This document shows, in pieces, positions 2,227 to 19,070 of a stretch of DNA of 44,503 bases; position 1 is the first letter of the stretch, and each line of letters begins with the position of its first letter. A program made the translations under genes and the position numbers. The DNA is from an uncultured Alphaproteobacteria bacterium. Its GTDB lineage: Bacteria > Pseudomonadota > Alphaproteobacteria > Sphingomonadales > SMXR01. Below the pieces are notes generated by a model. That model saw nothing but the letters and a program-made list of their open reading frames with translations. It searched no databases and was not told the origin of the DNA. Location: NCBI GenBank assembly GCA_937126915.1, contig CAKZLM010000037.1:1-44503 (forward strand), given 5' to 3'.

Positions 2227-3459
2227 ATGACCAATGCAAAAAAAGGCGAGATTATTACTTATGATCAAGCCAAAAACATTCTGGAAAAGGAAGATATCGC
2301 GGGGCGCCGCACCATAGCGGGACGAGAAGAAACAGCCCCTGAAATTCTTTATTACATGGCGTCTGAGGATAAAGACGCATCGGTTCGACAAAAGGTTGCT
2401 GGCAACAACAACACCCCTGCCCTAGCCCAAGAAATATTGGCCGATGATGATGCCGATGAAGTGCGCCTTGAACTGGCTCGCAAAATAGGCCGCATCATCC
2501 CTAACCTACGTAATGAAGCCGCGGCCCAATTGCGCGAAACCACGATTAAGATATTAGAGCGTTTGGCCGCCGATGAACTGCCCAAAATCAGACAAATTCT
2601 GGCCCTTGAAATTCAATCAGACGCGCGCATCCCAGTGAATATCGTCAACAAATTAGCCCGCGATAAAGAGGTTGATGTCGCCGCCCCTATTCTGGAATAT
2701 TCACCCCTTTTAAATGATACTGATCTAAAAGAAATTATCGCCGCGGGCATCGCCAAGGAAGCACTGGTTGCCATCGCCAAACGCCAAAACGTCAGCGAAA
2801 ATGTCGCTGATGCCATTGTTGATACCCTAGAGATTCCAGCCGTTGCGGCCCTTTTGACTAACAAAGATGCCACCATCCGCAGCCAAACCATGGACCAAAT
2901 CGTCAAACAGGCAGAAGGCATTGAAGACCTACACGAACCTTTGACCAAGCGCCCAAACCTGTCGCTACGCATTATGAAACGTATTTCCAGCTTTGTGGCG
3001 CGCGCGCTTATTAACAACATGGTCGAACAGCATGGCCTCAGCGATGATGTTGCTAAAGACCTTTTAAAACGCTCGCAAAACAAAATTGATGACATTGCCG
3101 GCGACGAAGATGATATCCAACACATGGAAGATCAGGTTACCAACTTTTATCGACGTGGCATGATTGATGATGAATTTATCGTCAATTGCATAGACAACCA
3201 CCGCCGCAGCATGATCATTCACGCCTTATCGCTGTTAACCGATGTCGATCGCACAAAAATTGATCGTGCCTTCAGCCAAAAAAACGCCCGCGTTATCACC
3301 GCACTTTGTTGGAAGGCGGGCTTTAAAATGCGCACCTCGCTGGAAATTCAAAACCGCCTTATCATGGTCAACCGCGCCCAAGCCGTGCTTGCCAAAGACG
3401 GCCTTCATTACCCCTTCGACGATAATGAAATGCGCAAAATCCTACTGCCATATACATGA
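2227..3459 (+). CDS. DUF2336 domain-containing HEAT-like repeat protein
   Basis: A 410-residue, almost entirely alpha-helical soluble protein. Its first half has repeated helical units of the form 'D-x-VR-x-x-A-x-x' (for example ASVRQKVAGN and DEVRLELARKIG), typical of HEAT-like repeats, and the whole matches the DUF2336 family common in Alphaproteobacteria. The function is unknown; a protein-protein scaffold is the usual guess. The last codons read KILLPYT then TGA. The same seven residues plus a stop reappear at 5610-5633 beyond the KAP gene, with synonymous differences, suggesting that foreign DNA entered at the 3' end of this gene. Confidence 0.85.
   Translation: MTNAKKGEIITYDQAKNILEKEDIAGRRTIAGREETAPEILYYMASEDKDASVRQKVAGNNNTPALAQEILADDDADEVRLELARKIGRIIPNLRNEAAAQLRETTIKILERLAADELPKIRQILALEIQSDARIPVNIVNKLARDKEVDVAAPILEYSPLLNDTDLKEIIAAGIAKEALVAIAKRQNVSENVADAIVDTLEIPAVAALLTNKDATIRSQTMDQIVKQAEGIEDLHEPLTKRPNLSLRIMKRISSFVARALINNMVEQHGLSDDVAKDLLKRSQNKIDDIAGDEDDIQHMEDQVTNFYRRGMIDDEFIVNCIDNHRRSMIIHALSLLTDVDRTKIDRAFSQKNARVITALCWKAGFKMRTSLEIQNRLIMVNRAQAVLAKDGLHYPFDDNEMRKILLPYT
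3436..3459 (+). repeat. Left copy of duplicated DUF2336 3' end (att-like)
   Basis: The final codons of the DUF2336 gene. Bases 3436-3449 are identical to 5610-5623, and the next ten match at seven positions (21 of 24 overall). Both copies encode K-I-L-L-P-Y-T-stop. The pair brackets the KAP gene. Confidence 0.7.
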
Positions 3460-3532
3460 CAAATAATTGTGTTTGACTACACCATCAACCTCCAGTAGCA
3501 TTTTGATCGTGCTTTAAGGGGAATTGATACTC

Positions 3533-5602
3533 ATGTCAGATATGATCGATAAGTCAAAATTAAAAATTTTAGATGACCAACCAACAGAAGAAGATGCTTT
3601 TGGTAGCCACCATAATATCGCAACGGGCCTCAAAAAAATTATTGATGATGACAAAGATGGAAAATCCATCGCCCTACTCGGTGGTTGGGGAACAGGCAAA
3701 AGCACCGTCATTAAAATTCTGCTGAGCCTTTACATTAAAGAAGAAAAACCATCCGAAACTCCCTCCCCAACTTTCATCGAATATGACGCATGGTCCCGCG
3801 AAAACGACCTATTCAAACGATCTTTCCTACAAAACTTGCTAGATAAACTATTTAAAGATCGGGAAAGTAAAAATTATAAAGACCTAAAAATAAAAATCTG
3901 GTCAAACAAACTGGATGTAGAAAAGGATGATAAAAGCGCTATCCATGTCATCATACTAGCCATTAGTATTATGACACTCATGCCATTTGGCTTAAACTTT
4001 TTACCTAACAAGTTCACAGATATTGATCTTTTATCTTCAGATTTCATTTGGTTATTATTATTTTTATCCCCTCTAATATATATGTTTGGTCTGTGGTTTT
4101 GCGGACACACGACCAAACAAGTTCTTTCATCAATTAAAGGCGAAACTGAACCAGAAGTTGCCACTATAGACCAACCCCAAGCTGACTTTATCCATACTTT
4201 CAATGAAATCATTTCTAAGTCAAACCTGAGCGAAAACGATAAAATCATTTTTGTCATTGATAATCTTGACAGGATTGAAGACGAGCACGATCAACAAAAA
4301 ATATGGGGGTCATTATCAGAAATTTTAACTGATATGAAAATTTCTAGGGAAACTGATTTAAGGCAAATTTCCTATCCAAATAATATACCACTTTATTTTA
4401 TTGTCCCCGTCAAACAAGATTTAGACGATAAAGCAAAAGCTCTAAATTTAATAGATAAGTTATTTGATCTAATTATTAATACTTCGAATTACTATCTCAT
4501 CGACTGGGAAAACTATTTTTTGGAGAAAATTACAAAAGCAATTCCGGATATAGACACAACATCGCTAATAAGAATTTGTGCTCAATTAAAAATGGATAAT
4601 GAATTCACGCCTAGAAAAATGATTAAACTCATTAATGATATTTCTCTAAAAATACTATTTTGTGAGGAAGCTGGCCAAAGTTCAAAAAGCGTCATAAACC
4701 CTGAATTCATTGCCGCTTATTTGCTTCACGTCCAAAACACACCATCTGAAGTACAAAAGAATTTATTTCGTCACTCTGCTTTAACAAATATTGGTAGAAA
4801 TTGCCCCGAGGATTTTGGATTTGGCGACGATCAAGATAGAGCTGCAAAAGCGGGGGCTTTATATTTTAATGTCACTATGTCCAATGCTGAGAAAATCACA
4901 CTTAAGAGCAATATTCTACACTGGTTAAAAATAGGGACAGTTATAGAGAATGGCGATTACAAAAACACCGACAATTTTGATTTCATTCTCTCTAATGCTG
5001 TTAACCAATATTTAGAAAATAAAAAAGAAAACTATTTAGCTTATTATATCAATCCTCTTGCAACAATTTATGAGTTAGGAAAGTCCTCAGAATTTATTTA
5101 CAAAGACATCTACAGACTTGCAAAAGCTATTTTCAGCTTGGTTAAAAAGGAAGGCAGCTCTTCTGGAGTTCCTAGTGCTGTAAATCTTAAGAAGGCATTA
5201 AAAATCATCGATCAGTACAATGCAGAGGCTGGGAAGGCCTTTGAAAATATTGACATAGAAAATCTTATAAATTTTATGGGCGATTTCTTAATTTCTGATA
5301 GGTCTTTATTTGGAAATTTAAGAAGGGACCTATCAAATCTATTAGAGAAACAAGGAAAGGATACCCATCTTATAGACACTTTATTTTACTTATCTCAAAA
5401 TGGCTATAATGGTTATCAAAAAATAGATTTATGGTTCTCTACTGATCAGTCAGCAAGCTATGAAAACTTCAGGGCTCTGCTTTCCGACACTCAAACAAAA
5501 GTCAGGGATGGCGACACATTACTAAGTGATCAAAAACTATCTTTCCTAGGTGACATTAGGGTTATCAATGAAAAAAGAGAATACGGTATTACATTTAAAT
5601 GA
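3533..5602 (+). CDS. KAP-family P-loop NTPase with two membrane segments
   Basis: A 689-residue protein if the ATG at 3533 is used; AAGGGG at 3516-3521 suits it, whereas the upstream TTG at 3524 is too close. The Walker A motif GGWGTGKST is at residues 50-58, followed by the KAP-type EYDAW motif near 83-87. Two hydrophobic segments (about 138-157 and 171-190) interrupt the NTPase domain, and Walker B is IIFVIDNLDR at 238-247. This is the classic KAP arrangement, a family that includes Kidins220/ARMS and F-plasmid PifA, which excludes phage T7. The C-terminal half is helical and unassigned. The gene is clearly richer in A/T and in AAT, ATA and TTA codons than its neighbours and has no obvious partner, so it was probably acquired. 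A defence role is inference. Confidence 0.85.
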   Translation: MSDMIDKSKLKILDDQPTEEDAFGSHHNIATGLKKIIDDDKDGKSIALLGGWGTGKSTVIKILLSLYIKEEKPSETPSPTFIEYDAWSRENDLFKRSFLQNLLDKLFKDRESKNYKDLKIKIWSNKLDVEKDDKSAIHVIILAISIMTLMPFGLNFLPNKFTDIDLLSSDFIWLLLFLSPLIYMFGLWFCGHTTKQVLSSIKGETEPEVATIDQPQADFIHTFNEIISKSNLSENDKIIFVIDNLDRIEDEHDQQKIWGSLSEILTDMKISRETDLRQISYPNNIPLYFIVPVKQDLDDKAKALNLIDKLFDLIINTSNYYLIDWENYFLEKITKAIPDIDTTSLIRICAQLKMDNEFTPRKMIKLINDISLKILFCEEAGQSSKSVINPEFIAAYLLHVQNTPSEVQKNLFRHSALTNIGRNCPEDFGFGDDQDRAAKAGALYFNVTMSNAEKITLKSNILHWLKIGTVIENGDYKNTDNFDFILSNAVNQYLENKKENYLAYYINPLATIYELGKSSEFIYKDIYRLAKAIFSLVKKEGSSSGVPSAVNLKKALKIIDQYNAEAGKAFENIDIENLINFMGDFLISDRSLFGNLRRDLSNLLEKQGKDTHLIDTLFYLSQNGYNGYQKIDLWFSTDQSASYENFRALLSDTQTKVRDGDTLLSDQKLSFLGDIRVINEKREYGITFK

Positions 5603-5609
5603 TTTATCT

Positions 5610-5633
5610 AAAATCCTACTGCCTTATACCTAA
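5610..5633 (+). repeat. Right copy of duplicated DUF2336 3' end (att-like)
   Basis: This copy repeats the 14-base core AAAATCCTACTGCC found at 3436-3449 and continues to encode Pro-Tyr-Thr-stop, but with CCT, ACC and TAA in place of CCA, ACA and TGA. It starts seven bases after the KAP stop codon. The three synonymous changes point to a related but diverged DUF2336 allele rather than a fresh duplication. Confidence 0.7.
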
Positions 5634-6702: not shown

Positions 6703-9700
6703 ATGTCGAAACATCATTCACCGTCAGCTGGCTGGCGTTCATCATTGAAAAAAGCCTTATTTTCTGCAACTGCTTTGGGGATGGGCCTTGCCGCATCTGC
6801 CGCGACAGCATCAGATTTTGATGGCGACCTATTAGCAGGCCTAAAGGCACGTAACATTGGCCCTGCCACCATGTCAGGCCGTATTGCCGCCATTGATGTG
6901 ATTGAAAGCGACCCTAGCCACATTTATGTGGGTGCGGCTTCGGGCGGTGTTTGGCATTCAACCGATTCTGGCACAACATGGGAACCTTTGTTTGATCGTG
7001 AAGATGTCGCCTCTATTGGTGCATTGGCGATCAACCAATCAAACCCGAGTATTATCTGGGTTGGTACTGGCGAAGGTAATGTTCGTAACTCAGTGTCCAT
7101 CGGTAACGGCATTTACAAATCAATGGATGGCGGCAAAACATGGCAAAACATGGGCCTTACTGACAGCGAGCATATCAACCGTATCGCCATTGACCCAACC
7201 GACCCTAACACCGTTTATGTGGCGGCTATGGGCCATCTTTGGTCTGATGGCGGTGAGCGTGGTATTTATAAAACTACCGACGGCGGTAAAACATGGACGA
7301 AAATTTTAGCCGGTGCCAACGATAACACAGGTGCCACCGATGTGATCATCGACCCGAACAATCCAAACAAATTATATGCCGCCATGTGGCAGTTCCGTCG
7401 CTATCCAGATTATTTCAAATCAGGGGGGCCGGGTTCTGGTTTGTTTGTCTCAAACGACAGCGGCTCAACGTGGCGCCAATTAACCGAACAAGACGGCATC
7501 CCAGCTGGCGAATTGGGCCGCGCCGTATTTAGTGTTTCTAAAAACCATTCAAACACCGTTTATGCCCTTGTTGAGGCAGAAAAATCAGCGATCATTCGTA
7601 CCGACGATGGCGGCAATTCATGGCGCAAGGTAAACCAAGACCCAGGTATTGCGAACCGTCCATTTTATTATATGGAACTTGAGGTTGACCCGAACGACCC
7701 CGAAACGGTTTATAACATCGCAACCAATCTTTCACGCTCGTATAATGGTGGCGGCAATTTTGACATGATCAGATCCGTTGATTGTTGCTCGGCCCCTAAC
7801 AAATTACATATTGACCTCCACAGCATGTGGATCAACCCGACCAATTCTGACCATATCATTCTTGGTAATGATGGTGGCCTTGGCATTTCTTATGATGCGG
7901 GTAACACGTGGCGCTTTGTGGGCAACTTGCCTGTGGCGCAGTTCTACCATATCAATGTGGATAATGATCTGCCGTATAATGTCTATGGCGGTTTGCAAGA
8001 CAACGGTACCTTCAAAGGGCCAAACGAAGTGTGGGAAAATGGTGGCATCCGCGAAGGTCACTGGCGCGAAATTGGTTTTGGTGATGGCTTTGACGCTGCC
8101 GCCCATCCAGAAGACAGCAATATTGGTTACGCCATGTCACAAGGTGGTAACCTGCGCCGTTGGAACTTAAACACTGGCGAATCTCAAGGCATTCGCCCGA
8201 ACCCACCAACCCCTGAAACAGAATTACGCTTTAACTGGAACGCGGGATTTGCCCAAGACCCGTTTAACGCCGATACCATCTATTATGGCTCACAGTTCTT
8301 GCATAAATCCACCGATCGCGGTGACACATGGGAAGTATTGTCAGGTGACTTAACCTCCAACAATCCTGACATGATGCGCTTTAAAGAATCAGGCGGTTTA
8401 ACCAGTGACGTAACTGCCGCTGAAAACTATCAATCAATTGTCGCCGTTGCCCCTAGCCCCGTTCAAGCGGGTGTTATTTGGGTAGGTACCGATGATGGTC
8501 GCGTGCATGTCACCCAAGATGGCGGTGCAACGTGGCAATCGGTTGAGGGTCGTGCCCGTGGTATGAAAGGCAAATGGGTTCCACATATTGAACCAAGCCC
8601 GCATGATGCCTCACAAGCCTTTGTGGTATTTGATGATCACCGTCGTGGTGACATGAAGCCACATGTGTTCCGTGTCGAAAACTTTGGCCGTAAATGGAGC
8701 AATATCACCACTGATGACATCAGCGGTTATGCCCTAAGTATTCAACAAGATCATGTTGATCCTGATTTATTGTTCTTAGGTACCGAGTTTGGTTTGTTTG
8801 TCACCATCAATGGTGGCAAAGAATGGACCAAATGGACTGGCAGTGTTCCAACCACATCTGTGATGGATTTGGCAATCCAAGAGCGTGAAAACGATCTGGT
8901 GCTTGGCACCCACGGCCGCGCCGTGTTTGTTATTGATGATTATTCTGGTCTACGTAACTTGGATAAAGATGACTTCAGCAGCCGTTTAAAGATGCTTTCA
9001 ACAACCGATGGCATTGCCTATAACGTTAGCCAGTCAATTGGTGCTCGTTTTGATGCTTCCACGGGCTTTAGAGGGGAAAATGCAGACCGAGGAGCTTATA
9101 TCACCTTTATGGCCTCTGGTAATGATCTGAAACACCCTGACCCAGCGTTGGAGCGTCAACGTCTTGCTGCACAGAAAAATGCTAAAGACGAAGACAAGCC
9201 AAAAGGCAAACCGGGCCGCGTAAAGGTTGAAATTACCAATGCGGATGGTGATGTGATCCGTACTTTCCATAGAACCGCCCACCAAGGTATTAACCGCATT
9301 GTGTGGAACATGCGTGAAGATGGCGATGCGGGTCTGCGAAACCTGCGCCCTGATCAAGACTTACCAGCGGGCTCTGGCGTGGTTCCAGGTACTTATGGCG
9401 TTAAATTGACCATGGGTGATCAAACTGTTGAAGGTAGTTTTGCTGTGATGGCTGACCCGCGTGAGGACCTAAGCCAAGCTGACTATCAAGCCAATTATGA
9501 TCATGGCAAACGCATCCAAGCCTTGGTGAAAACCGCCAACACCGCGATGAAACGTGTGCGCGCCGCCAAAAAAGATGCCGATGCGATCAAAGCCATGGCT
9601 GATGCAGCGGTGAAGAAAGAAGGCTCTGACCAAGAAACCTTAAAAGCTCTTGCCAAGAAGGCTGGAGAAGTTTCAAAAGCCTTGGGTGAAAATGATGAAC

Positions 9701-9969
9701 TTTACTCGGTTAATCGCCGTGGCGCAGAAGGCATCGTTTACACAGGCGATAAGGTTATGACCAAAATCTTTGGCGCCTATGGCAACATGGGCAATGGTGC
9801 GCCAAGTGCCTCTGCGCTTGCTTATTTTGAACGCGCCCGTTTGGCTGTTGAAAAGGCGGTTGGTGAAACCAATGCCCTAATGAATGGTGACGTTGCTGAA
9901 TTACGCGCCATGTTCAAACAAAGCGGCCTAGAGATGTTGCCTGAAGAAGGTGAGATCACCCTACCTTAA
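6703..9969 (+). CDS. Large secreted VPS10/sortilin-like BNR beta-propeller protein
   Basis: A 1088-residue protein beginning at ATG 6703 after AGGGGGAA. An N-terminal signal peptide runs through SAATAS near residue 37. About nine Asp-box (BNR) motifs of the form S/T-x-D-x-G-x-T/S-W are visible from roughly residue 85 to 720, for example STDSGTTWEP, SMDGGKTWQN, TTDGGKTWTK and TQDGGATWQS. This matches the exported sortilin/xyloglucanase-like propeller family often annotated as glycosyl hydrolase. After the propeller comes a beta-rich segment (about 800-930) resembling the immunoglobulin-like C-terminal part of these proteins, then a helical tail rich in Ala and Lys (about 940-1088). Substrate and catalytic activity are not evident. 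It is probably periplasmic or surface-located and monocistronic, with a hairpin after its stop. Confidence 0.85.
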   Translation: MSKHHSPSAGWRSSLKKALFSATALGMGLAASAATASDFDGDLLAGLKARNIGPATMSGRIAAIDVIESDPSHIYVGAASGGVWHSTDSGTTWEPLFDREDVASIGALAINQSNPSIIWVGTGEGNVRNSVSIGNGIYKSMDGGKTWQNMGLTDSEHINRIAIDPTDPNTVYVAAMGHLWSDGGERGIYKTTDGGKTWTKILAGANDNTGATDVIIDPNNPNKLYAAMWQFRRYPDYFKSGGPGSGLFVSNDSGSTWRQLTEQDGIPAGELGRAVFSVSKNHSNTVYALVEAEKSAIIRTDDGGNSWRKVNQDPGIANRPFYYMELEVDPNDPETVYNIATNLSRSYNGGGNFDMIRSVDCCSAPNKLHIDLHSMWINPTNSDHIILGNDGGLGISYDAGNTWRFVGNLPVAQFYHINVDNDLPYNVYGGLQDNGTFKGPNEVWENGGIREGHWREIGFGDGFDAAAHPEDSNIGYAMSQGGNLRRWNLNTGESQGIRPNPPTPETELRFNWNAGFAQDPFNADTIYYGSQFLHKSTDRGDTWEVLSGDLTSNNPDMMRFKESGGLTSDVTAAENYQSIVAVAPSPVQAGVIWVGTDDGRVHVTQDGGATWQSVEGRARGMKGKWVPHIEPSPHDASQAFVVFDDHRRGDMKPHVFRVENFGRKWSNITTDDISGYALSIQQDHVDPDLLFLGTEFGLFVTINGGKEWTKWTGSVPTTSVMDLAIQERENDLVLGTHGRAVFVIDDYSGLRNLDKDDFSSRLKMLSTTDGIAYNVSQSIGARFDASTGFRGENADRGAYITFMASGNDLKHPDPALERQRLAAQKNAKDEDKPKGKPGRVKVEITNADGDVIRTFHRTAHQGINRIVWNMREDGDAGLRNLRPDQDLPAGSGVVPGTYGVKLTMGDQTVEGSFAVMADPREDLSQADYQANYDHGKRIQALVKTANTAMKRVRAAKKDADAIKAMADAAVKKEGSDQETLKALAKKAGEVSKALGENDELYSVNRRGAEGIVYTGDKVMTKIFGAYGNMGNGAPSASALAYFERARLAVEKAVGETNALMNGDVAELRAMFKQSGLEMLPEEGEITLP

Positions 9970-10021
9970 GCTAGATTGTTGTTGGCCTTGAGAGCTCTGT
10001 CTTTTGAGGCCACGACCGCTT

Positions 10022-10076
10022 GCTGGGAAGCCCATATCACCTGTTTAACACAGCATGATATGGGTTTTATCCCAGC
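10022..10076 (+). terminator. Composite hairpin terminator
   Basis: An inner 9-bp perfect stem (10031-10039 with 10056-10064, TGATATGGG followed by TTTT) is nested in an outer 7-bp stem (GCTGGGA at 10022 with TCCCAGC ending 10076). It lies about 50 bases after the stop of the sortilin-like gene. Confidence 0.6.
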
Positions 10077-10121
10077 CAAAAAGCGAGAGTAAAATTTAAT
10101 TAAGTGAGCATCATAAACACA

Positions 10122-10649
10122 ATGAAACCACAAGTACTTTTCAGAAAAATTCACCATTGGGGGTCCTTTATCATCGCCATCCCTAGCCTAATCATCATTG
10201 GTGCTGGTATATTATTGATGCTGAAAAAAGATGTTGAATGGCTACAACCCTCTACAATTCAAGGGTCTGTGACAACCACTGTTCCCACCGCGACCATGCA
10301 GCAAATGTTTGATGCCGTCACCAAGGTGCAAGAAGCAGGCATCACCCATTGGACTGACCTAGACCGGGTTGACTTTAAAAATGATAAAGGCGTGGCTAAA
10401 TTTATCGCCACCAATAATTGGGAAGTACAGGTTGATACCACCACCGCAAAGGTTTTAGGTGTTGCTTACCGCCGTTCTGACATTATCGAACAAATTCACG
10501 ACGGCAGTTTTTTTGCCGATTGGGCCAAGCTTGGGCTTTTCCTGCCCTCTGGCATCGTCCTATTTGTCTTATGGCTAACGGGCATGTATCTCTTCTTCCT
10601 GCCACATTATAAAAACTGGCAAAAATCCCGCAAAAAGAACCAGAAATAA
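10122..10649 (+). CDS. PepSY-associated transmembrane protein
   Basis: A 175-residue inner-membrane protein from ATG 10122; an in-frame GTG at 10104 would add six residues and cannot be excluded, as neither has a strong ribosome-binding site. Residues 1-35 hold the family-typical 'RKIHHWGSFIIAIPSLIIIGAGILL' region (shown here split: RKIHHW then a hydrophobic span). A periplasmic PepSY-like part follows (WEVQVDTTTAKVLGVAYRR), and a second membrane span is near 145-165 (LPSGIVLFVLWLTGMYLFFL). Such proteins are often linked to iron or redox functions at the membrane; no partner is visible here. Confidence 0.75.
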   Translation: MKPQVLFRKIHHWGSFIIAIPSLIIIGAGILLMLKKDVEWLQPSTIQGSVTTTVPTATMQQMFDAVTKVQEAGITHWTDLDRVDFKNDKGVAKFIATNNWEVQVDTTTAKVLGVAYRRSDIIEQIHDGSFFADWAKLGLFLPSGIVLFVLWLTGMYLFFLPHYKNWQKSRKKNQK

Positions 10650-10704
10650 GCACCGACAATTTAGCAGCTGTCGCAAGGGTTAGGCTCTTGTGATCTGTTA
10701 CTTT

Positions 10705-11442
10705 TTAAAGCACCATCATGGATGCTGAGGATGTTAAGGAAACAGGGCCCATGGGCAACAACGATGTGGTGATAAAATCCAAGCTATAGGTCATGGTGAC
10801 CGTAACGGTTGAACCAGCATGGCGACTGGGTGACCAGCCCACCTCGATAAAAACCTCGTTGGGGCCAACGCCAATGGCTTGTTCTTTGGCAAAGGCTTTT
10901 ATTTCAAGATCGGTTTCTTCATCCAAGGTGGCGTGGCCTTGAATGCTGGCATAACGGGCACTTTCTGCTACGGCATTGTTAAGGCTGGCATAGGTAAAGA
11001 CCGCCCTGCCCATATCAAAAATAACCAGCATGAAAATGATAAGTGTTGGGAATAAAAAGGCTGATTCCACGGTGGAGATACCACGTTGGTCATCGACAAA
11101 TCTTTGCCAGATACTTTGCGAAGCGGGTGATCTTTTGGTTGTTTTTTTAGCCTCTATACCACACAAGCCACCAACGAAATTCTGCCAAAGACTTTTTAAT
11201 TGATCGTGGTCCTTTTGACGCTGTCGAGATGTTGATCCTCCCCGCCTAGCATGCAAAGGGTCTGCGATACGCTTTTCCCCAAACTTCTCAGACAGCTTTG
11301 GCTTTTGACGGCCAGTCCCTGATAAAACACCACGGTGGTCAGCGACAAATCTTTGCGAAACGGTTTCGCTAACCGCCTTCTCACGATTCATTTGACCATC
11401 TGCCTTGTTTGTTTGTTTTTCATTGTCGATGCCTGTTGTCAT
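10705..11442 (-). CDS. TadE-family pseudopilin with repeated leader motifs
   Basis: A 245-residue protein whose C-terminal 130 residues form a normal TadE-like pseudopilin: a leader ending QRFVDDQRG at 113-121, Glu126, a membrane segment (about 128-148), then a beta-rich periplasmic domain ending VSLTSSASMMVL. The unusual part is the 110-residue N-terminal extension. It is charged and contains SQRFVADHRG (29-38) and LWQNFVGGLCG (85-95), both resembling the leader at 111-121. The first and last copies are also alike in DNA (26 of 28 bases). It is the third gene of a compact tadG-tadE-tadE transcript. TadE-type proteins are processed by prepilin peptidase and help assemble Flp/Tad pili. Confidence 0.8.
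   Translation of the reverse strand: MTTGIDNEKQTNKADGQMNREKAVSETVSQRFVADHRGVLSGTGRQKPKLSEKFGEKRIADPLHARRGGSTSRQRQKDHDQLKSLWQNFVGGLCGIEAKKTTKRSPASQSIWQRFVDDQRGISTVESAFLFPTLIIFMLVIFDMGRAVFTYASLNNAVAESARYASIQGHATLDEETDLEIKAFAKEQAIGVGPNEVFIEVGWSPSRHAGSTVTVTMTYSLDFITTSLLPMGPVSLTSSASMMVL
11080..11107 (-). repeat. Internal repeat, leader-proximal copy
   Basis: This 28-base segment encodes FVDDQRG and its neighbours and matches 11329-11356 at 26 of 28 positions. It contains the functional-looking prepilin leader next to the membrane segment. Confidence 0.75.
11329..11356 (-). repeat. Internal repeat, N-terminal copy
   Basis: This is the second copy of the 28-base segment, encoding QRFVADHRG near residue 30 of the pseudopilin. 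It is followed by no hydrophobic segment. Confidence 0.75.
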
Positions 11443-11443
11443 G

Positions 11444-11908
11444 TTATCGCACCCTTATGCTGGCATTGGCGCTTAAGGCCCAATTTTCAACAAAGCCCGG
11501 CACCCCAAACAGCATGGCATAATCACGGTCAACGGTAACGGTAAGAAATAATTGCGGGTAATTGTCATCAATGCAGGTGGTCAAACAACTGACCGAACCA
11601 GTGCTTTCAGGGCATTCACAGGTATTAACTGCGGTTACTGCCATGCCATCATTATCGGGTTCAGCCGCCGTTAAAACCGCCGCTTCAATGGTGGGAATAT
11701 TGATTGCATCTGACTGGCTTCTTAGGCCAATTTGCACGCCTGTGCGGGCCAATTGTTCAAGGCGAATACGTTCAAACAACAAGCGCCCAAAATCGAATGT
11801 GCCCAGCGCTAAAAACGCCAATATTGAAAACACAAAAGCCATCTCAATGGTAACATTACCACGGTCATCTTTTTTCAAACGATGAAGAACTGTAGATAAA
11901 CGCGTCAT
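11444..11908 (-). CDS. TadE-family pseudopilin
   Basis: A 154-residue protein with a short basic leader (LHRLKKDDRG at residues 9-18), the conserved Glu of VTIE at residue 22, and a membrane segment (about 24-42), followed by 'FERIRLEQLARTG' and a periplasmic beta domain. A Cys-rich loop (CECPESTGSVSCLTTC) suggests disulphides. This is the standard architecture of TadE minor pseudopilins of type IVc (Tad/Flp) secretion-pilus systems. It starts two bases after the tadG-like stop and ends one base before the next gene, so all three are one transcription unit. Confidence 0.85.
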   Translation of the reverse strand: MTRLSTVLHRLKKDDRGNVTIEMAFVFSILAFLALGTFDFGRLLFERIRLEQLARTGVQIGLRSQSDAINIPTIEAAVLTAAEPDNDGMAVTAVNTCECPESTGSVSCLTTCIDDNYPQLFLTVTVDRDYAMLFGVPGFVENWALSANASIRVR

Positions 11909-11910
11909 GA

Positions 11911-13170
11911 TTATTCCACCAATTGAGTTGAGATAAACAAAGGGTTAAAGGCACGTGAGCTTTCAGGGTCAAAGTTGGCAATATGGGCATTGCCTGTAAA
12001 GTCCACCTGGCGGGCAACCAAAAACAGCTCCGCACTATCAGCTTCTGAACCACCAGAGAACTTTACCTCTTGACCCGGAAAATAAAGAATACCATCAAGG
12101 TCCATGGTTGAACCACCGGTTAAAGAATGGGTAATGGCTTCACTGCTATTTGGATCTTGAATGAAAAGCAGCCCGCGATAAAGCCCTGATGTTGGGGCAT
12201 TCAAATCAACCGTTGCGCCCCCTGAGATTGAGATATTTTCACTGACCCCACCTTTATCGGTTAGGTAAATGGTCACATCATCACCATAAAGGGTGGCTTG
12301 GGCACTTACCTTAAAACCTGCGGCATCTAAAATATAAACACCGGGTGCCATGGTAACCGTACCGCCAGTAATATTAATATCGCCACAATAGGTGCCCGGA
12401 TAAATAGTAACCGCGCCGCCATTAATTCCAGTTGAGCTGGTATGATCACAGCCAGTTACCTCTGGCAAGGGAAGCGGGTTTAAAGGATCAAGGCGGGGTT
12501 GCACGCCGGGGGTTGGTTCTGGCTCAATACATGTGCCATCTGCCCCACCCACAATTTCCACCTCTGATGCCCGTAAACAAGCGGTGTTACCATTCACCTG
12601 AATAGCCTCAACCGCCACAGAGTTGGCAAAAACACCGCAGTTAAAGCTAACATCGGCACCACCGCTTACCCGCAGCGCCCCATATTCATCAGGGTCCAAA
12701 GCCCAAAGGCAGGTGTTGCTAACATCGCCAACCGCCACCGCGCGGGATGAAACGAAACCATCAGCCTCAAACAATAAATGGGCAAAAAGAGTGCCCACGG
12801 GGCGACTGACAATAATTTCAACAGCATCATCATCGCCAACCCGCTTACCATCTAAGGGGGGCCAATTAATCGCAATTAAATCGCCTTTGGTATCGTCATA
12901 GCCATTGCTTTCGGCGTTATGCATAACGGCAGTGTTAAAGTTTGGCACACTACCATCGCCCTCGGTGCGGTCGCGGACAATTTCCACTGCCCCCGCTACG
13001 GCAGCAGCATCAGCAATGATCTGGGTTTCGCGCTTGGCAATTTGCCAAATAGCAACATCCACCCCCATACCAACAAAGCCGATTAGGGCGGGTAACATAA
13101 TGGCGGTATAGGCCAAGGCTGACCCTGACTGATCACGCCAGAATCGCTTTAAAATTTTAGTGAAAAGCAC
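11911..13170 (-). CDS. TadG-like pilus-assembly protein
   Basis: The start chosen is GTG 13170, which has GAGGAG eight bases upstream; the GTG at 13179 abuts that site. The 419-residue product opens with a leader of the form FWRDQSG, followed by one membrane segment (LAYTAIMLPALIGFVGMGVDVAI) and the TadG-typical 'AKRETQIIADAAAVAGAVEI' helix. The rest is periplasmic: a central domain with several Cys and a Gly/Thr-rich C-terminal part with short repeats such as GINGGAVTIYPGTYCG and ITGGTVTMAPGVYIL that reads like a right-handed beta-helix. TadG-type proteins anchor Tad pili to the envelope. The core tad genes (ATPase, secretin) are not in the window. Confidence 0.82.
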   Translation of the reverse strand: MLFTKILKRFWRDQSGSALAYTAIMLPALIGFVGMGVDVAIWQIAKRETQIIADAAAVAGAVEIVRDRTEGDGSVPNFNTAVMHNAESNGYDDTKGDLIAINWPPLDGKRVGDDDAVEIIVSRPVGTLFAHLLFEADGFVSSRAVAVGDVSNTCLWALDPDEYGALRVSGGADVSFNCGVFANSVAVEAIQVNGNTACLRASEVEIVGGADGTCIEPEPTPGVQPRLDPLNPLPLPEVTGCDHTSSTGINGGAVTIYPGTYCGDINITGGTVTMAPGVYILDAAGFKVSAQATLYGDDVTIYLTDKGGVSENISISGGATVDLNAPTSGLYRGLLFIQDPNSSEAITHSLTGGSTMDLDGILYFPGQEVKFSGGSEADSAELFLVARQVDFTGNAHIANFDPESSRAFNPLFISTQLVE

Positions 13171-13257
13171 GGCAGGCACTCCTCATTCCATCCAAATGCA
13201 TGACTGTTAGACACACCAGCCATACACATTCCTATCTGATTCTATATCAAACTTACC

Positions 13258-13273
13258 TTAAAGCCTGTTTAAG
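13258..13273 (-). promoter_or_regulatory. CtrA-like half-perfect box upstream of the tadG-like gene
   Basis: TTAA-N7-TTAAG occurs 88 bases upstream of the tadG-like start. It has the full TTAA-N7-TTAA core but G in place of the last C. Caulobacter pilA is CtrA-controlled, so the location is suggestive, but the region is AT-rich and chance is possible. Confidence 0.3.
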
Positions 13274-13302
13274 AACCCGTTGGATTTGTCTAAAATTTTA
13301 AC

Positions 13303-13336
13303 AAATAAAAAGCGCCCCCAAAAATTTGGGAGCGCC
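13303..13336 (-). terminator. Rho-independent terminator of the PAS_5 gene
   Basis: On the minus strand an 11-bp stem with one G-U pair (13336-13326 with 13322-13312) is followed by TTTTTATTT (13311-13303). It lies 27 bases after the stop of the PAS gene. Confidence 0.85.
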
Positions 13337-13362
13337 TTAAATCGAATCAATGCTTGGTAGAG

Positions 13363-13950
13363 TTAAGCTGATTGTAACTGCTGAGGAATGCCATCTACCT
13401 GATAGCGCCAGTCAAGCTTGCCAAAGCCAATATCAACCGTTTCACTATAAACAACCTTATGATTGGTGACCTGTAAGTTAGCGGTTTGGTTATAATTGCG
13501 TTTTAGCACATCTTCAGCATTTGAAAGACCAATAATAAATTGCATATCATGCTGCGGCCCCAAGAAAGGCAACAAGATGCTTTTTAAATACTCAACCACA
13601 TTGCCCATGTGAATTTCCCGAACAACAAACAATCCAACCTTCTGGTTAAATATCATGTTGGTTAAGTCTTTGACCATATACTCAGCTTCATTGTCAAACA
13701 ATTCACGCCATTTTTTATTTTGAAGTTGAATGGGTAAAAGCTCTTCAATTTTGGTACCTGCAAGGCGAATGTTTAAATCGCTTTCTTCCAACGCATCCAT
13801 CAAGAAAATGGATGGTAACATGTGAATGACAGACGCAGGATTAAAATCAGCCTTTAGGGGAATACCTTGACCTTCAACCTTTGGCAAAGAATGCCAGTAG
13901 GTTAAAAACTCCGTAAACTCAGCGGGGATAATCTGATGAACTAAAGTCAT
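13363..13950 (-). CDS. PAS_5-family PAS domain protein
   Basis: A 195-residue soluble protein consisting of a single PAS-like domain of the PAS_5 type found in multiple copies in Rhodospirillales and related orders. The marker stretches are 'YWHSLPKVEGQGIPLKADFN', LPSIFLMDA and NIRLAGTKIEELL. No output domain follows, so its signalling role is unknown. It is alone between two terminator-type hairpins. Two tandem paralogues, one of them broken, occur at 23268-24588. Confidence 0.82.
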   Translation of the reverse strand: MTLVHQIIPAEFTEFLTYWHSLPKVEGQGIPLKADFNPASVIHMLPSIFLMDALEESDLNIRLAGTKIEELLPIQLQNKKWRELFDNEAEYMVKDLTNMIFNQKVGLFVVREIHMGNVVEYLKSILLPFLGPQHDMQFIIGLSNAEDVLKRNYNQTANLQVTNHKVVYSETVDIGFGKLDWRYQVDGIPQQLQSA

Positions 13951-14111
13951 GTGTGTACTCTACGATATTGCTTGTTTTTTTTAGTAATGTCATTTTTCAT
14001 GATCTGAGGAGGTTATACCCCGAAACCCCTAATAAGTTATTAACGCCAAAAAAATAATTTCATCTGAAACAAAAATGAGGGATTTGCTAAAACACCGCGC
14101 ACCATAAAACA

Positions 14112-14140
14112 TATCACCGGCCCATCAAGAACCGGTGATA
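14112..14140. other. Perfect 9-bp hairpin in a 270-base intergenic gap
   Basis: TATCACCGG (14112-14120) pairs perfectly with CCGGTGATA (14132-14140). On the minus strand it is followed by TGTTTTATGG, so it could be a weak terminator for the ccoGHIS-TIGR01244 transcript that ends at 14221. Otherwise 13951-14220 shows no gene; it also holds a one-mismatch CtrA-like string CTAA-N7-TTAAC at 14029-14044. Confidence 0.45.
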
Positions 14141-14220
14141 GTGAAGCGAGCTTTGCCATCGGAAACAAGAGGCCAGCGTGGCTAGCATTTTATCATGCTG
14201 ATAGTTGTTGTGGTGTTTGT

Positions 14221-14559
14221 TTACTGAACCAGCTTCCAGAGATTGCTTGAGCGGTTGCCTGTGCGGCAATAAGCAAGCAAACTGCCTTGATTTTCAGCTA
14301 AAGCGACCTTCATACTATCAACGGCGTCATTGGTAAAATTACCACCAGACACGGGCGCAAAAATAAAAGCCATACCACGTGCTTCGGCCCATTGTTTGAC
14401 CATTTCTGCCGTTGGTTGGCCAGGGTCTTCATTATCAGGGCGATTACAAATAACTGCGGTTACGCCTTCTGCCTTTGCAGCATCCAAAATGGCTTCATCA
14501 ACTTGACCACGCACACGGGTTCCATCTGGCATCAAAGACCATAGAGCATCATTTGTCAT
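14221..14559 (-). CDS. TIGR01244-family phosphatase/sulfurtransferase-like protein
   Basis: A 112-residue cytosolic protein matching the small 'beta-lactamase hydrolase-like' phosphatase family (DUF442/TIGR01244). It has the VICNRPDNEDPGQPT segment typical of the family and an active-site loop CRTGNRSS with Cys98 and Arg103, as in tyrosine phosphatases and rhodaneses. Relatives are linked to sulfide and redox metabolism. It lies 22 bases after ccoS on the same strand and may be transcribed with the oxidase assembly genes. The substrate is unknown. Confidence 0.82.
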   Translation of the reverse strand: MTNDALWSLMPDGTRVRGQVDEAILDAAKAEGVTAVICNRPDNEDPGQPTAEMVKQWAEARGMAFIFAPVSGGNFTNDAVDSMKVALAENQGSLLAYCRTGNRSSNLWKLVQ

Positions 14560-14581
14560 AGCACTTACCTTTATTCTTTAA

Positions 14582-14761
14582 TCAATCATTTTTTTGTTCA
14601 CTATCTGTGTCAATAGCATCATCTTCATCATCATACAATATGCGGTTTGCGGCACCATCTAAATCGTCATATTGACCAGACTTAGCGGCCCAAAAAAACG
14701 CCATCAACCCAATAAAGCCTAGGATTAACATGGCTGGGATCAAGAACAATAACGCCGTCAT
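14582..14761 (-). CDS. ccoS: cbb3 oxidase assembly protein CcoS
   Basis: A 59-residue single-span membrane protein. It starts MTALLFLIPAMLILGFIG, is hydrophobic to about residue 24, then has WAAKSGQYDDLDGAANRILY, the conserved CcoS signature in which the 'SGQYDDLDGAA' stretch precedes an acidic tail. CcoS is needed to insert cofactors into cbb3 oxidase. Its ATG overlaps the stop of ccoI in an ATGA arrangement, implying translational coupling. Confidence 0.93.
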   Translation of the reverse strand: MTALLFLIPAMLILGFIGLMAFFWAAKSGQYDDLDGAANRILYDDEDDAIDTDSEQKND

Positions 14762-16983
14762 GATGCCTTAACCTTTGCAAGGTGTAAGCGCAGTGAATTT
14801 AAGATCACCAAAAGGGATGAACTAGACATGGCAATGGCCGCCACCAAAGGGGTTGCCAAACCAGCGACTGCCATCGGAATGGCGATAATGTTATAACAAA
14901 AAGCCAGCGCAAAATTTTGCTTCACCAAACGATCGGTTTTTTTGCTAACAGTTAATATTTCTGGCACCACAGCCAATGACTTTCCTTGGAAAATAATGTC
15001 AGACGCTGTCTGCGAGATATCCGCCGCACTGGCAGGGGAAATTGACACGTCTGCAGCGGCAAGGGCGGGTGCATCGTTTAAGCCATCACCCACCATCAAC
15101 ACGCAGCCATTTGCCAATTTTGCTTTTTCTTTCAACTCATCAATCTTGGCGACCTTTTCTGTGGGCTTTAAGCTGGCCCAGAAATCATCCACACCAAGGG
15201 CATTGGCCTGCGCCTTGACCGAACCATAATGATCACCCGACAATAAAACAACTCGGTAACCTTGCTCTTTTATCCATTGAACGGTTTCAAGGGCGTCGGG
15301 GCGTAATTGATCCACAAATTTCAGGCAATGTAGAACCGAACCATTTTTTTCAAACCATAACTCAGGGCCTGCTTCATGGCCTTGCTGCAAAGCAGGGACA
15401 TCCAACCATTGTCGATTGCCTAGGCGATAATGGTCATCACCATCTTGCCATTCAAGGCCACAGCCAGAAATCTCTTTTACCTGATCAAGGGGCTTTGCTG
15501 TTGGAAAGGCCTCAACAATGGCCCGCGATAGTGGATGACTGGATGAATAGGCCATTCCGGCACAAAGTGACAAGAGATCATCGGATAAAAGATGGCGGTT
15601 AACCAACGCGGGCTTACCAAGGGTTAATGTGCCAGTTTTATCAAAGCAAATGGTATTAACATTTTTAAGTTTTTCTAGCGCATCACCTGACTTTAGTAAC
15701 ACACCTTGTCGCATCAAACGCCCACTGGCAACAACCTGCACCACAGGCACCGCCAAGCCCAAAGCACACGGACAAGTGATGATTAACACGGCAATGGCAA
15801 GCAACAGCGCTTGTTGCCAATCTGCGCCCATACCAAGCCACCAACCAAGGAAGGTTAACAGCCCCAATAAATGTACCACGGGCGCATACCAACCCGCAAT
15901 TTTATCAGCCAAACGAACAAATTGCCCGCGTGCCTGTTCGGCGTTTTCCATCATTCTGACAATATCAGCTAAAAGGGTTGAATCACCCACCGCGGTGACT
16001 TTTATCTCTAGCGTGGCAGATAAGTTAATCATGCCAGTATAAAGCTGATCCCCTGCTTTAGCAGACATTGGTACAGACTCGCCAGTAACCATGCTGGTAT
16101 CAATATCTGATAGGCCCGCTAAGACAACCCCATCAACTGGAATTTTATCGCCCTTTTTCACCCGTACCACTGTGCCTAGGGCAACCTGATGAATAGGCAA
16201 GGCTTCTATGCTACCATCATCCATCACAACATCTGCGGTCATGGCTTGAAGGGCCACCAAATTTTCCCCTACAGATCGGGCCTTAGCACGGGCACGGTGA
16301 TCTAAATAGCGCCCAACCAACAAGAAAAACAACAGCGATACAGACGCATCAAAATAGACATGATCACCGCCTTCAATGGTTTCAAACAAACTCATCCCCG
16401 AGGCCAGAACAATCGCCAAAGAAATAGGTACATCCATATTGAGCTGTTTGTTACTGAGGGCTTTAATAGCAGATCCAAAGAAAGGTCTGCCCGAATAAAC
16501 CACCGTTGGCAGGGCAACAATGGCTGATAACCAATGAAACAAACCGCGCGTTCCCTCACCCATGGTGGCAAAAGCGCCCGCCCAAACCGCAAAGGACAAC
16601 ATCATCACATTGGCCATGGCAAATCCGGCAACCGCCATGGCGTATAAAAGCCGTGTTTCTTCTTCCTTGTCAGAATTGCTCATAGTTTCAGGGTCAAAGG
16701 GGGCAAGGTCAAAGCCTTTATTAACAATGTCGCGCATCACAACCGAAGGATCAAAGCTGCCATCCTGCCAGCGCATCACCATGCGCTTAGATGTCATATT
16801 AACCCGCCCTTCTTTAAGCTGCTCATAGGCGGCAAGGGTTTTTTCAATAGACCGCATACAGCCCGCACAGCGAATGCCATCCACCATCAAATGTAACGAT
16901 TGAACACCATCTGGGCTTTGATGAATGAAGGGCTTTGGGTCAATCCCATCAAAAGCTCTATCTATAGCATGAGTTTGCGACAT
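14758..16983 (-). CDS. ccoI: Copper-exporting P-type ATPase CcoI (FixI)
   Basis: A 741-residue P1B-type ATPase that delivers copper for cbb3 oxidase assembly. An N-terminal metal-binding domain carries C39-A-G-C42. The membrane copper motif CPC is at 404-406, TGES at 300-303, the phosphorylated Asp in DKTGT at 448-452, the HP motif at 483-484 and GDGLNDAP at 632-639. About eight membrane spans are visible. All catalytic motifs are intact. It lies between ccoH (8-base gap) and ccoS (overlap), the standard order, which separates it from housekeeping copper-efflux pumps. Confidence 0.95.
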   Translation of the reverse strand: MSQTHAIDRAFDGIDPKPFIHQSPDGVQSLHLMVDGIRCAGCMRSIEKTLAAYEQLKEGRVNMTSKRMVMRWQDGSFDPSVVMRDIVNKGFDLAPFDPETMSNSDKEEETRLLYAMAVAGFAMANVMMLSFAVWAGAFATMGEGTRGLFHWLSAIVALPTVVYSGRPFFGSAIKALSNKQLNMDVPISLAIVLASGMSLFETIEGGDHVYFDASVSLLFFLLVGRYLDHRARAKARSVGENLVALQAMTADVVMDDGSIEALPIHQVALGTVVRVKKGDKIPVDGVVLAGLSDIDTSMVTGESVPMSAKAGDQLYTGMINLSATLEIKVTAVGDSTLLADIVRMMENAEQARGQFVRLADKIAGWYAPVVHLLGLLTFLGWWLGMGADWQQALLLAIAVLIITCPCALGLAVPVVQVVASGRLMRQGVLLKSGDALEKLKNVNTICFDKTGTLTLGKPALVNRHLLSDDLLSLCAGMAYSSSHPLSRAIVEAFPTAKPLDQVKEISGCGLEWQDGDDHYRLGNRQWLDVPALQQGHEAGPELWFEKNGSVLHCLKFVDQLRPDALETVQWIKEQGYRVVLLSGDHYGSVKAQANALGVDDFWASLKPTEKVAKIDELKEKAKLANGCVLMVGDGLNDAPALAAADVSISPASAADISQTASDIIFQGKSLAVVPEILTVSKKTDRLVKQNFALAFCYNIIAIPMAVAGLATPLVAAIAMSSSSLLVILNSLRLHLAKVKAS

Positions 16984-16991
16984 AAATATCT

Positions 16992-17516
16992 TTAATCCCT
17001 AGTCACCATTAATCGCTCTGAATAACGATTTTCAATGTCTTCTTTTATCATCAAAACACGTAAGTCCCACTGACCAACGTCTAATAAATTTACCTGTGCA
17101 TAGTAAAACCCGGGGCGGGTTTCTTTGAAGGTAATGGATATATCAAAACTACGACTGGCCGGACGCTCCAGCTTACCCACAACAGTTAAACCCTCAACAG
17201 CAAGACTATTGGCATCAGCCACAACAAATTCAATCGCTGTTCCGTTTGCACCGGGTAAATCATAAACGTTTGATGTCATATCCCAATTGAGGGCCTTGGC
17301 GGCTGCGCCTTTTTCAATCAGTTCATTATATTGCAAACCCTTGTCATAAGCCGCTTTGGTTTCAACGCCGGGCCAACTGTTTAAGGCTTGCAGCAAAAAG
17401 ATAACGTTGGCAACCATCATCACACCAAAGAAAGCGATGAACCAGCGTGCCACACGCCAACCTGAATATTTGGGGGATTGATTATTGGCATCAATATTTA
17501 TCATTGTTTTAGGCAT
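16992..17516 (-). CDS. ccoH: cbb3 oxidase assembly protein CcoH (FixH)
   Basis: A 174-residue protein with one N-terminal membrane segment (about residues 25-45, WFIAFFGVMMVANVIFLLQAL) and a periplasmic beta-sandwich domain. The marker 'YNELIEKGAAAKALNWDM' and the C-terminal WDLRVLM segment fit the FixH family, which is required for stable cbb3 assembly. Its ATG directly follows the ccoG stop, so the two are co-translated. Confidence 0.9.
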   Translation of the reverse strand: MPKTMINIDANNQSPKYSGWRVARWFIAFFGVMMVANVIFLLQALNSWPGVETKAAYDKGLQYNELIEKGAAAKALNWDMTSNVYDLPGANGTAIEFVVADANSLAVEGLTVVGKLERPASRSFDISITFKETRPGFYYAQVNLLDVGQWDLRVLMIKEDIENRYSERLMVTRD

Positions 17517-19070
17517 TTATTTTCTCCCATACAAATTTCTAGGATTTGTATGCTTGGCAACAAAAATATTCTTTTCAGAAACCGTTTCGCCAGATGAGGG
17601 GTTTTGCACGATGAAGGCAATTTCTTTGCGTTCAAAGGCAATTTGGTCTTTAGGTAACAAAACAAATACTCGAAAATCTTCTACCTGATTAGGTGCCACG
17701 GTCACATCCAAATGTTGGCTAACATGCTCGTCTTTGCCCGCAAGCCACATCTCACTGCCTGGCAAGCCAGTTAAGGAGATATGAAATTCTTGCGGCTGAT
17801 GTAACTTATTCATAATTTTTAGAACATAACCATTTCTAACACTGCCATCAGACTGCGTTACCATGACGGGATTACGGTCTTTCAAGACATTTAAATCCGT
17901 TTGCTGCTGGTTCGCTAAAGAAAACATCATCACAACACTCATCAGAACCAAAATAGCGGCATAGAAAACGGTTCTGACCCGTAAAATTTTTGTGACCTCT
18001 GGCTCACCTTTGCTCCGGCGCTCAACATTGGCTAAACTGTCAAACCCAATAAGGTTTTTAGGCAAACCAACCTTTTCCATCACATTGTTACAAGCATCGG
18101 CACATAAGCCACAATTGATACACTCAATTTGCATCCCATTACGAATATCGATCCCCATCGGGCACACTGCCACGCATTGGGTGCAATCAATACAATGACC
18201 ACGATTGCTATAGTTATCATCTTTTGGCTTTTTAGCGCGTGGCTCACCACGGTCACCACGGTATGCAATGATATAGGTATCTTTATCGATCATCGCTGAT
18301 TGGAAGCGCGAATAAGGGCACATATAGGTACACACCTGTTCACGGGCAAAACCGGCCAGCAAATAGGTTGTACTGGTCAATATAACGATAGTGTATAGGG
18401 CTGCACTGGGCGCTTCAAATGCCATTAATTGTGCTGCCAAGGTTGGTGCGTCCATAAAATAAAACGTCCACGCACCGCCCGTACACATGGCAATAAGGAT
18501 CCATAAAATATGCTTGGTGACACGCTTTCTAATCTTATCAAAGTCATAAGGCGCTTTATCGAGTTTGATACGAGCATTGCGATCGCCTTCTACCCAGCGC
18601 TCTACCATCACAAATAAGTCCGTCCATACGGTTTGCGGACAGCCCCAGGCACACCAAGCACGACCAATAAGCGAAGTGACAAAAAACAACCCCCAAGCCG
18701 ATGCGACCAAAATACCAACCAAATAATAAACTTCTTGCGGCCAAATTTCGATGCCGAAGAAATAAAAACGCCGCGAGCCAATATCAAACAAAACCGCTTG
18801 ATCAGGGGCTAATGGACCACGATCCCAGCGCAGCCAAGGTAAGAAATAATAAATGCCCAAAAGCACAGCCATAAACCACCATTTAATGGTTCTAAAAAAG
18901 CCGCGCACACGTTTTGGAAAAATTTTAATTTGCTTAGCAAAATACTGGCGATTTTCTTGCCAATTCACAGGTTGAAATTGCTCATCCAATGATATTGGTT
19001 TGGCATTGCCGTGCTGTTGAATTTCTTCAGTCATCTTATCGTTAACAGCCCCTTTAGGAGTTTTTGACAC
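17517..19070 (-). CDS. ccoG: cbb3 oxidase assembly iron-sulfur protein CcoG (FixG)
   Basis: A 517-residue membrane ferredoxin-like protein with several hydrophobic spans (about 64-80, 114-136, 186-205, 224-240 and 368-388). Two 4Fe-4S motifs are present: Cys293, 296, 299, 303 and Cys317, 320, 323, 327. An NqrB/RnfD-like 'GRAWCAWGCPQTVW' segment is at 136-149. CcoG is a cupric reductase acting with CcoI in copper delivery. The start is uncertain: GTG 19070 is used here, but ATG 19034 (MTEEIQ) is possible because neither has a clear ribosome-binding site. It is separated from ccoP by a terminator. Confidence 0.92.
   Translation of the reverse strand: MSKTPKGAVNDKMTEEIQQHGNAKPISLDEQFQPVNWQENRQYFAKQIKIFPKRVRGFFRTIKWWFMAVLLGIYYFLPWLRWDRGPLAPDQAVLFDIGSRRFYFFGIEIWPQEVYYLVGILVASAWGLFFVTSLIGRAWCAWGCPQTVWTDLFVMVERWVEGDRNARIKLDKAPYDFDKIRKRVTKHILWILIAMCTGGAWTFYFMDAPTLAAQLMAFEAPSAALYTIVILTSTTYLLAGFAREQVCTYMCPYSRFQSAMIDKDTYIIAYRGDRGEPRAKKPKDDNYSNRGHCIDCTQCVAVCPMGIDIRNGMQIECINCGLCADACNNVMEKVGLPKNLIGFDSLANVERRSKGEPEVTKILRVRTVFYAAILVLMSVVMMFSLANQQQTDLNVLKDRNPVMVTQSDGSVRNGYVLKIMNKLHQPQEFHISLTGLPGSEMWLAGKDEHVSQHLDVTVAPNQVEDFRVFVLLPKDQIAFERKEIAFIVQNPSSGETVSEKNIFVAKHTNPRNLYGRK

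Follow-up and report, generated by a model that had tools for sequence, protein, structure and literature searches.

Locus and terminal repeats

The window, that is, the whole 44,503-nucleotide stretch of DNA analyzed here, contains a gene of the DUF2336 family followed by a gene encoding a KAP-family P-loop NTPase, and the last codons of the former are found on both sides of the latter. The features of the locus are as follows.

2227-3459, + strand: DUF2336-family gene, 410 aa (Pfam PF10098, E 3e-46), the putative target, now with a presumed element-borne terminus
3436-3459, + strand: proximal repeat copy, AAAATCCTACTGCCATATACATGA, with a core unique to this repeat pair in the genome, presumed left attachment-site hybrid, whose TGA is the stop codon of the DUF2336 gene
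3473-3501, + strand: promoter-like site TTGACT-17-TAGCAT, downstream of the proximal repeat and upstream of the KAP gene, a consensus match only
3533-5602, + strand: KAP-family P-loop NTPase gene, 689 aa (Pfam PF07693, E 2e-16), the sole cargo
5610-5633, + strand: distal repeat copy, AAAATCCTACTGCCTTATACCTAA, 21/24 identical to the proximal copy, presumed right attachment-site hybrid plus displaced native DUF2336 end

A preliminary description of this DNA had reported that the end of the DUF2336 gene at 3436-3459 recurs at 5610-5633, and this was borne out by the sequence. The two copies were identical at 21 of 24 positions, and at 19 of 20 across the first 20 bases, and they shared the 14 identical bases AAAATCCTACTGCC described as their common core. 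Also as described, the distal copy was separated from the end of the KAP open reading frame at 5602 by a gap of seven bases (5603-5609), and translation gave KILLPYT followed by a stop for both copies, with synonymous codon differences between the proximal and the distal copy at Pro (CCA/CCT), Thr (ACA/ACC) and the stop (TGA/TAA). Such purely synonymous differences are what an incoming terminus derived from a gene end would be expected to show. The identity ended at the edges of the repeat on both sides.

When the 20-mer of the repeat was searched with up to 3 mismatches, only these two sites were found in the window (mean after shuffling, 0.01), and no third site was present in the whole 2.79-Mb genome. 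Viral contigs contained no copy of the core. We also compared the ends of the 31 long open reading frames of the window by their best match within 4 kb. The DUF2336 end was an outlier at 21/24, the 30 others reaching 14 to 16/24. Among direct-repeat pairs of the window with a spacing of 0.3 to 9 kb, the terminal repeat ranked first by a modest lead, with a score of 17 versus 15 for the next pair. By length alone the repeat is not overwhelming; the case rests on where it lies, precisely on a stop codon and at the edges of an AT-rich gene. No RNA families or tRNAs were found in the window; therefore, the site is not the end of a tRNA or tmRNA gene.

The KAP gene had a GC content of 34% (31% at third codon positions), and the DUF2336 gene, the HAD-hydrolase gene and the downstream genes had a GC content of 44 to 50%. 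A change-point fit placed the left edge of the AT-rich segment at 3422 (support, 3401 to 3842), at the proximal repeat. For the right edge the fit gave 5777, away from the distal repeat, a position blurred because the intergenic region downstream is also AT rich. For threonine, the host genes of the window used ACC in 56% and ACA in 19% of the codons, and the KAP gene used ACA in 44% and ACC in 12%. The stop codon of the host genes was TAA in 18 of 27 cases and TGA in 6 of 27. The distal copy (ACC, TAA) thus resembles a native terminus and the proximal copy (ACA, TGA) an imported one, in line with the integration model; because only three codons are informative, this is no more than a hint.

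The KAP protein and its distant relatives

The KAP protein matched PF07693 with 60.4 bits (curated cut-off, 20) and therefore contains the P-loop domain of this family. The Walker A motif, GGWGTGKST, is followed by two hydrophobic stretches and then by IIFVIDNLDRIE. In the bracketed 2.2 kb, the KAP gene was the only long open reading frame besides one overlapping antisense frame, in agreement with the earlier statement that the segment holds one gene and no recognizable integrase. Promoter-like sites in the region were not above the shuffled background (8 found versus 9.0 expected).

The KAP protein had no close homologue in about 780 genomes of the order and class (overlapping sets: 60 relatives, 398 genomes from the order, 385 from the class), and collections of plasmids, phages and viral contigs gave no close match either. 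The bracketed segment, which comes from a draft genome of 176 contigs, matched nothing in phage and plasmid records. A search of solved structures gave no meaningful match, and a structure predicted from the single sequence was unusable (pLDDT 36). With PADLOC, weak matches to the PDC-S20, PifA and QatA models were obtained. An assignment as QatA was rejected, the score being 29.5 bits versus 600 for the NCBIfam equivalog, with DUF2336 and unrelated genes as neighbors and no qatBCD.

At the class level, the most similar KAP protein (24% identity over 589 residues) was encoded in another genome, at a locus (L104, 1393-10720) where a Gabija GajA-GajB pair is directly followed by a gene for a 1,121-aa KAP NTPase. 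A recombinase-like gene of the serine type, as judged by its sequence, lies on the opposite strand. It is possible that the KAP gene is a companion of Gabija at this locus. A repeat pair found there was rejected as a gene-end bracket, since one copy lies within GajB and the other shortly before the start of the serine-recombinase gene. Candidate repeat pairs were also found around distant KAP relatives at three other loci (L106, L107 and L108).

Because of the weak PDC-S20, PifA and QatA matches and the relative beside Gabija, an anti-phage role of the KAP protein is likely, as judged from its family and this distant relative. By analogy, it is probably a membrane-associated, single-protein anti-phage factor working like PifA. 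It resembles the PifA/KAP anti-phage proteins in its KAP P-loop domain, its weak PifA profile match and its two hydrophobic stretches past Walker A, but the PifA match spans only residues 18 to 113.

The DUF2336 gene in related genomes and recombinases of the source genome

Orthologues of the DUF2336 protein with 38 to 49% identity were present in most genomes of the order, 41 besides the source genome. The five relatives examined all had a HAD-hydrolase gene near the DUF2336 gene, adjoining it in three, and lacked the insert. When the last 24 bases of the gene were compared with the DNA downstream (about 10 kb for most), a duplicated terminus was found for none of 39 orthologues in the order, the best matches reaching 13 to 16/24. 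The terminal residues of the orthologues differed from KILLPYT; therefore, the same attachment site is absent from them. As far as can be seen from these sequences, the terminus duplication is private to the source lineage. Separately, the DUF2336 protein scored 133 bits against the NCBIfam SpbR model, below the cut-off of 400, and is thus a distant relative of SpbR at most. A literature search on DUF2336 found no papers.

Tyrosine-recombinase matches were present on contigs 31, 86, 128 and 136 of the genome, and a large serine recombinase was found on contig 160, so that all PF00589 and PF07508 matches were on contigs other than that of the KAP gene. None of these recombinases could be linked to the KAP site, because the core has no further copy. 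The serine recombinase on contig 160 (4544-9815; 606 aa, truncated at the end of the contig) has Fic-domain and MauJ-like proteins nearby. Contig 86 carries an island-like region (8494-18783). Besides a tyrosine-recombinase-like gene, it encodes a Prim-Pol primase and a C5-cytosine methylase, and genes of the region match the PADLOC NsnA, NsnB and NsnC models.

Probable integration at a gene end and its alternatives

Integration at the 3' end of the DUF2336 gene is likely. We consider it fairly probable that a 2,174-bp integrase-less island, spanning about 3450 to 5623, entered at the 3' end of a protein gene, bringing a replacement terminus and displacing the native one. The preliminary description had proposed such an integration with a replacement terminus, and the proposal is partly supported by a unique repeat on the stop codon, the foreign composition of the cargo, the absence of close KAP homologues in relatives and, as a hint only, the codons of the two copies. 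We infer that a 2,174-bp circular DNA would have recombined with the DUF2336 3' end by a single crossover via the short core, within the 14 identical bases. The DUF2336 gene would thereby have come to end in the synonymous codons CCA TAT ACA TGA of the incoming DNA, and its native last codons CCT TAT ACC TAA would have been left beyond the cargo. Because the segment has no recombinase, the integrase may have acted in trans or may have been lost with the rest of a larger, CIME-like integrative element; it is also conceivable that none was needed. Excision would give the DUF2336 gene its native terminus back. The predicted empty site is 3449 joined to 5624, ATGCGCAAAATCCTACTGCC-TTATACCTAAGG, and the predicted circular junction is GATTTATCTAAAATCCTACTGCC-ATATACATGACAAAT.

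A repeat of 20 bp is short, and illegitimate recombination can also act on one of this size. DNA of a related lineage, with a diverged DUF2336 end beside the KAP gene, may thus have entered through 14 to 20 bp of identity with no site-specific recombinase. The differences between the copies, all synonymous, fit the gene end of a diverged homologue, and the core has neither a second site nor a linked integrase in the genome; moreover, RecA-independent recombination between short direct repeats has been documented for an integrase-less island (PMC5426353). This route would leave unexplained, however, why the identity stops at the gene end and why no other DUF2336 sequence of the donor is present, and we regard it as rather unlikely. 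It is far less likely that the KAP gene is an ordinary horizontally acquired gene downstream of DUF2336, with a second terminus that matches by chance. The score of the pair, just above the next best of the window (17 versus 15), would allow this, but among gene termini the match stands far apart (21/24 versus at most 16/24), the repeat is unique in 2.79 Mb and is separated from the KAP stop by seven bases, and nothing alike was found in the 39 orthologues.

A recurrent hotspot at which the DUF2336 3' end exchanges different defense cargoes had also been suggested. The anatomy of the site would suit such a role, but in the order none of the 39 orthologues carried a duplicated terminus downstream, let alone different cargo at the same site, and the terminal codons were not conserved. 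At this level the suggestion was not borne out, and we consider a hotspot very improbable, marginally more so than a chance match.

The favored integration at the gene end yields an arrangement of a rare but already known kind, since islands without an integrase between direct repeats have been documented (PMC3191183, PMC3146451), and the KAP segment likewise has att-like direct repeats at a gene end and no integrase inside; its single-gene size is unusual. Like a cis-mobilizable element (CIME) (PMC5704250), it has att-like flanking repeats at a gene end and no integration or transfer genes, but CIMEs are decay products of ICEs or IMEs, whereas the KAP island has one gene and no known parent element. 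In Dehalococcoides, ssrA islands that lack an integration module follow a 20-bp repeat of the 3' end of ssrA (PMC3146451). The 20-bp direct repeat and the cargo without an integrase are similar here, but the target there is a tmRNA gene, where many islands lie in tandem and related ones bear integrases, and the KAP case involves a protein gene and one island. The microcin H47 island has been shown to excise without a recombinase gene of its own (PMC3191183, PMC5426353). It shares with the KAP island imperfect direct repeats and the lack of an encoded recombinase, but it is 13 kb long with repeats of about 145 bp, whereas the KAP island is 2.2 kb long with repeats of 20 to 24 bp.

With one case and no empty site to set beside it, the KAP locus is still an anecdote. 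A general process, in which minimal single-gene defense cassettes with their own replacement termini move among the 3' ends of protein genes with a recombinase in trans, is improbable on present evidence. If the proposed integration is true, the locus would represent a very small island at the terminus of a protein gene, consisting of one gene and two half-sites, and a defense-like gene could be inserted with its target left intact and with no integrase of its own.
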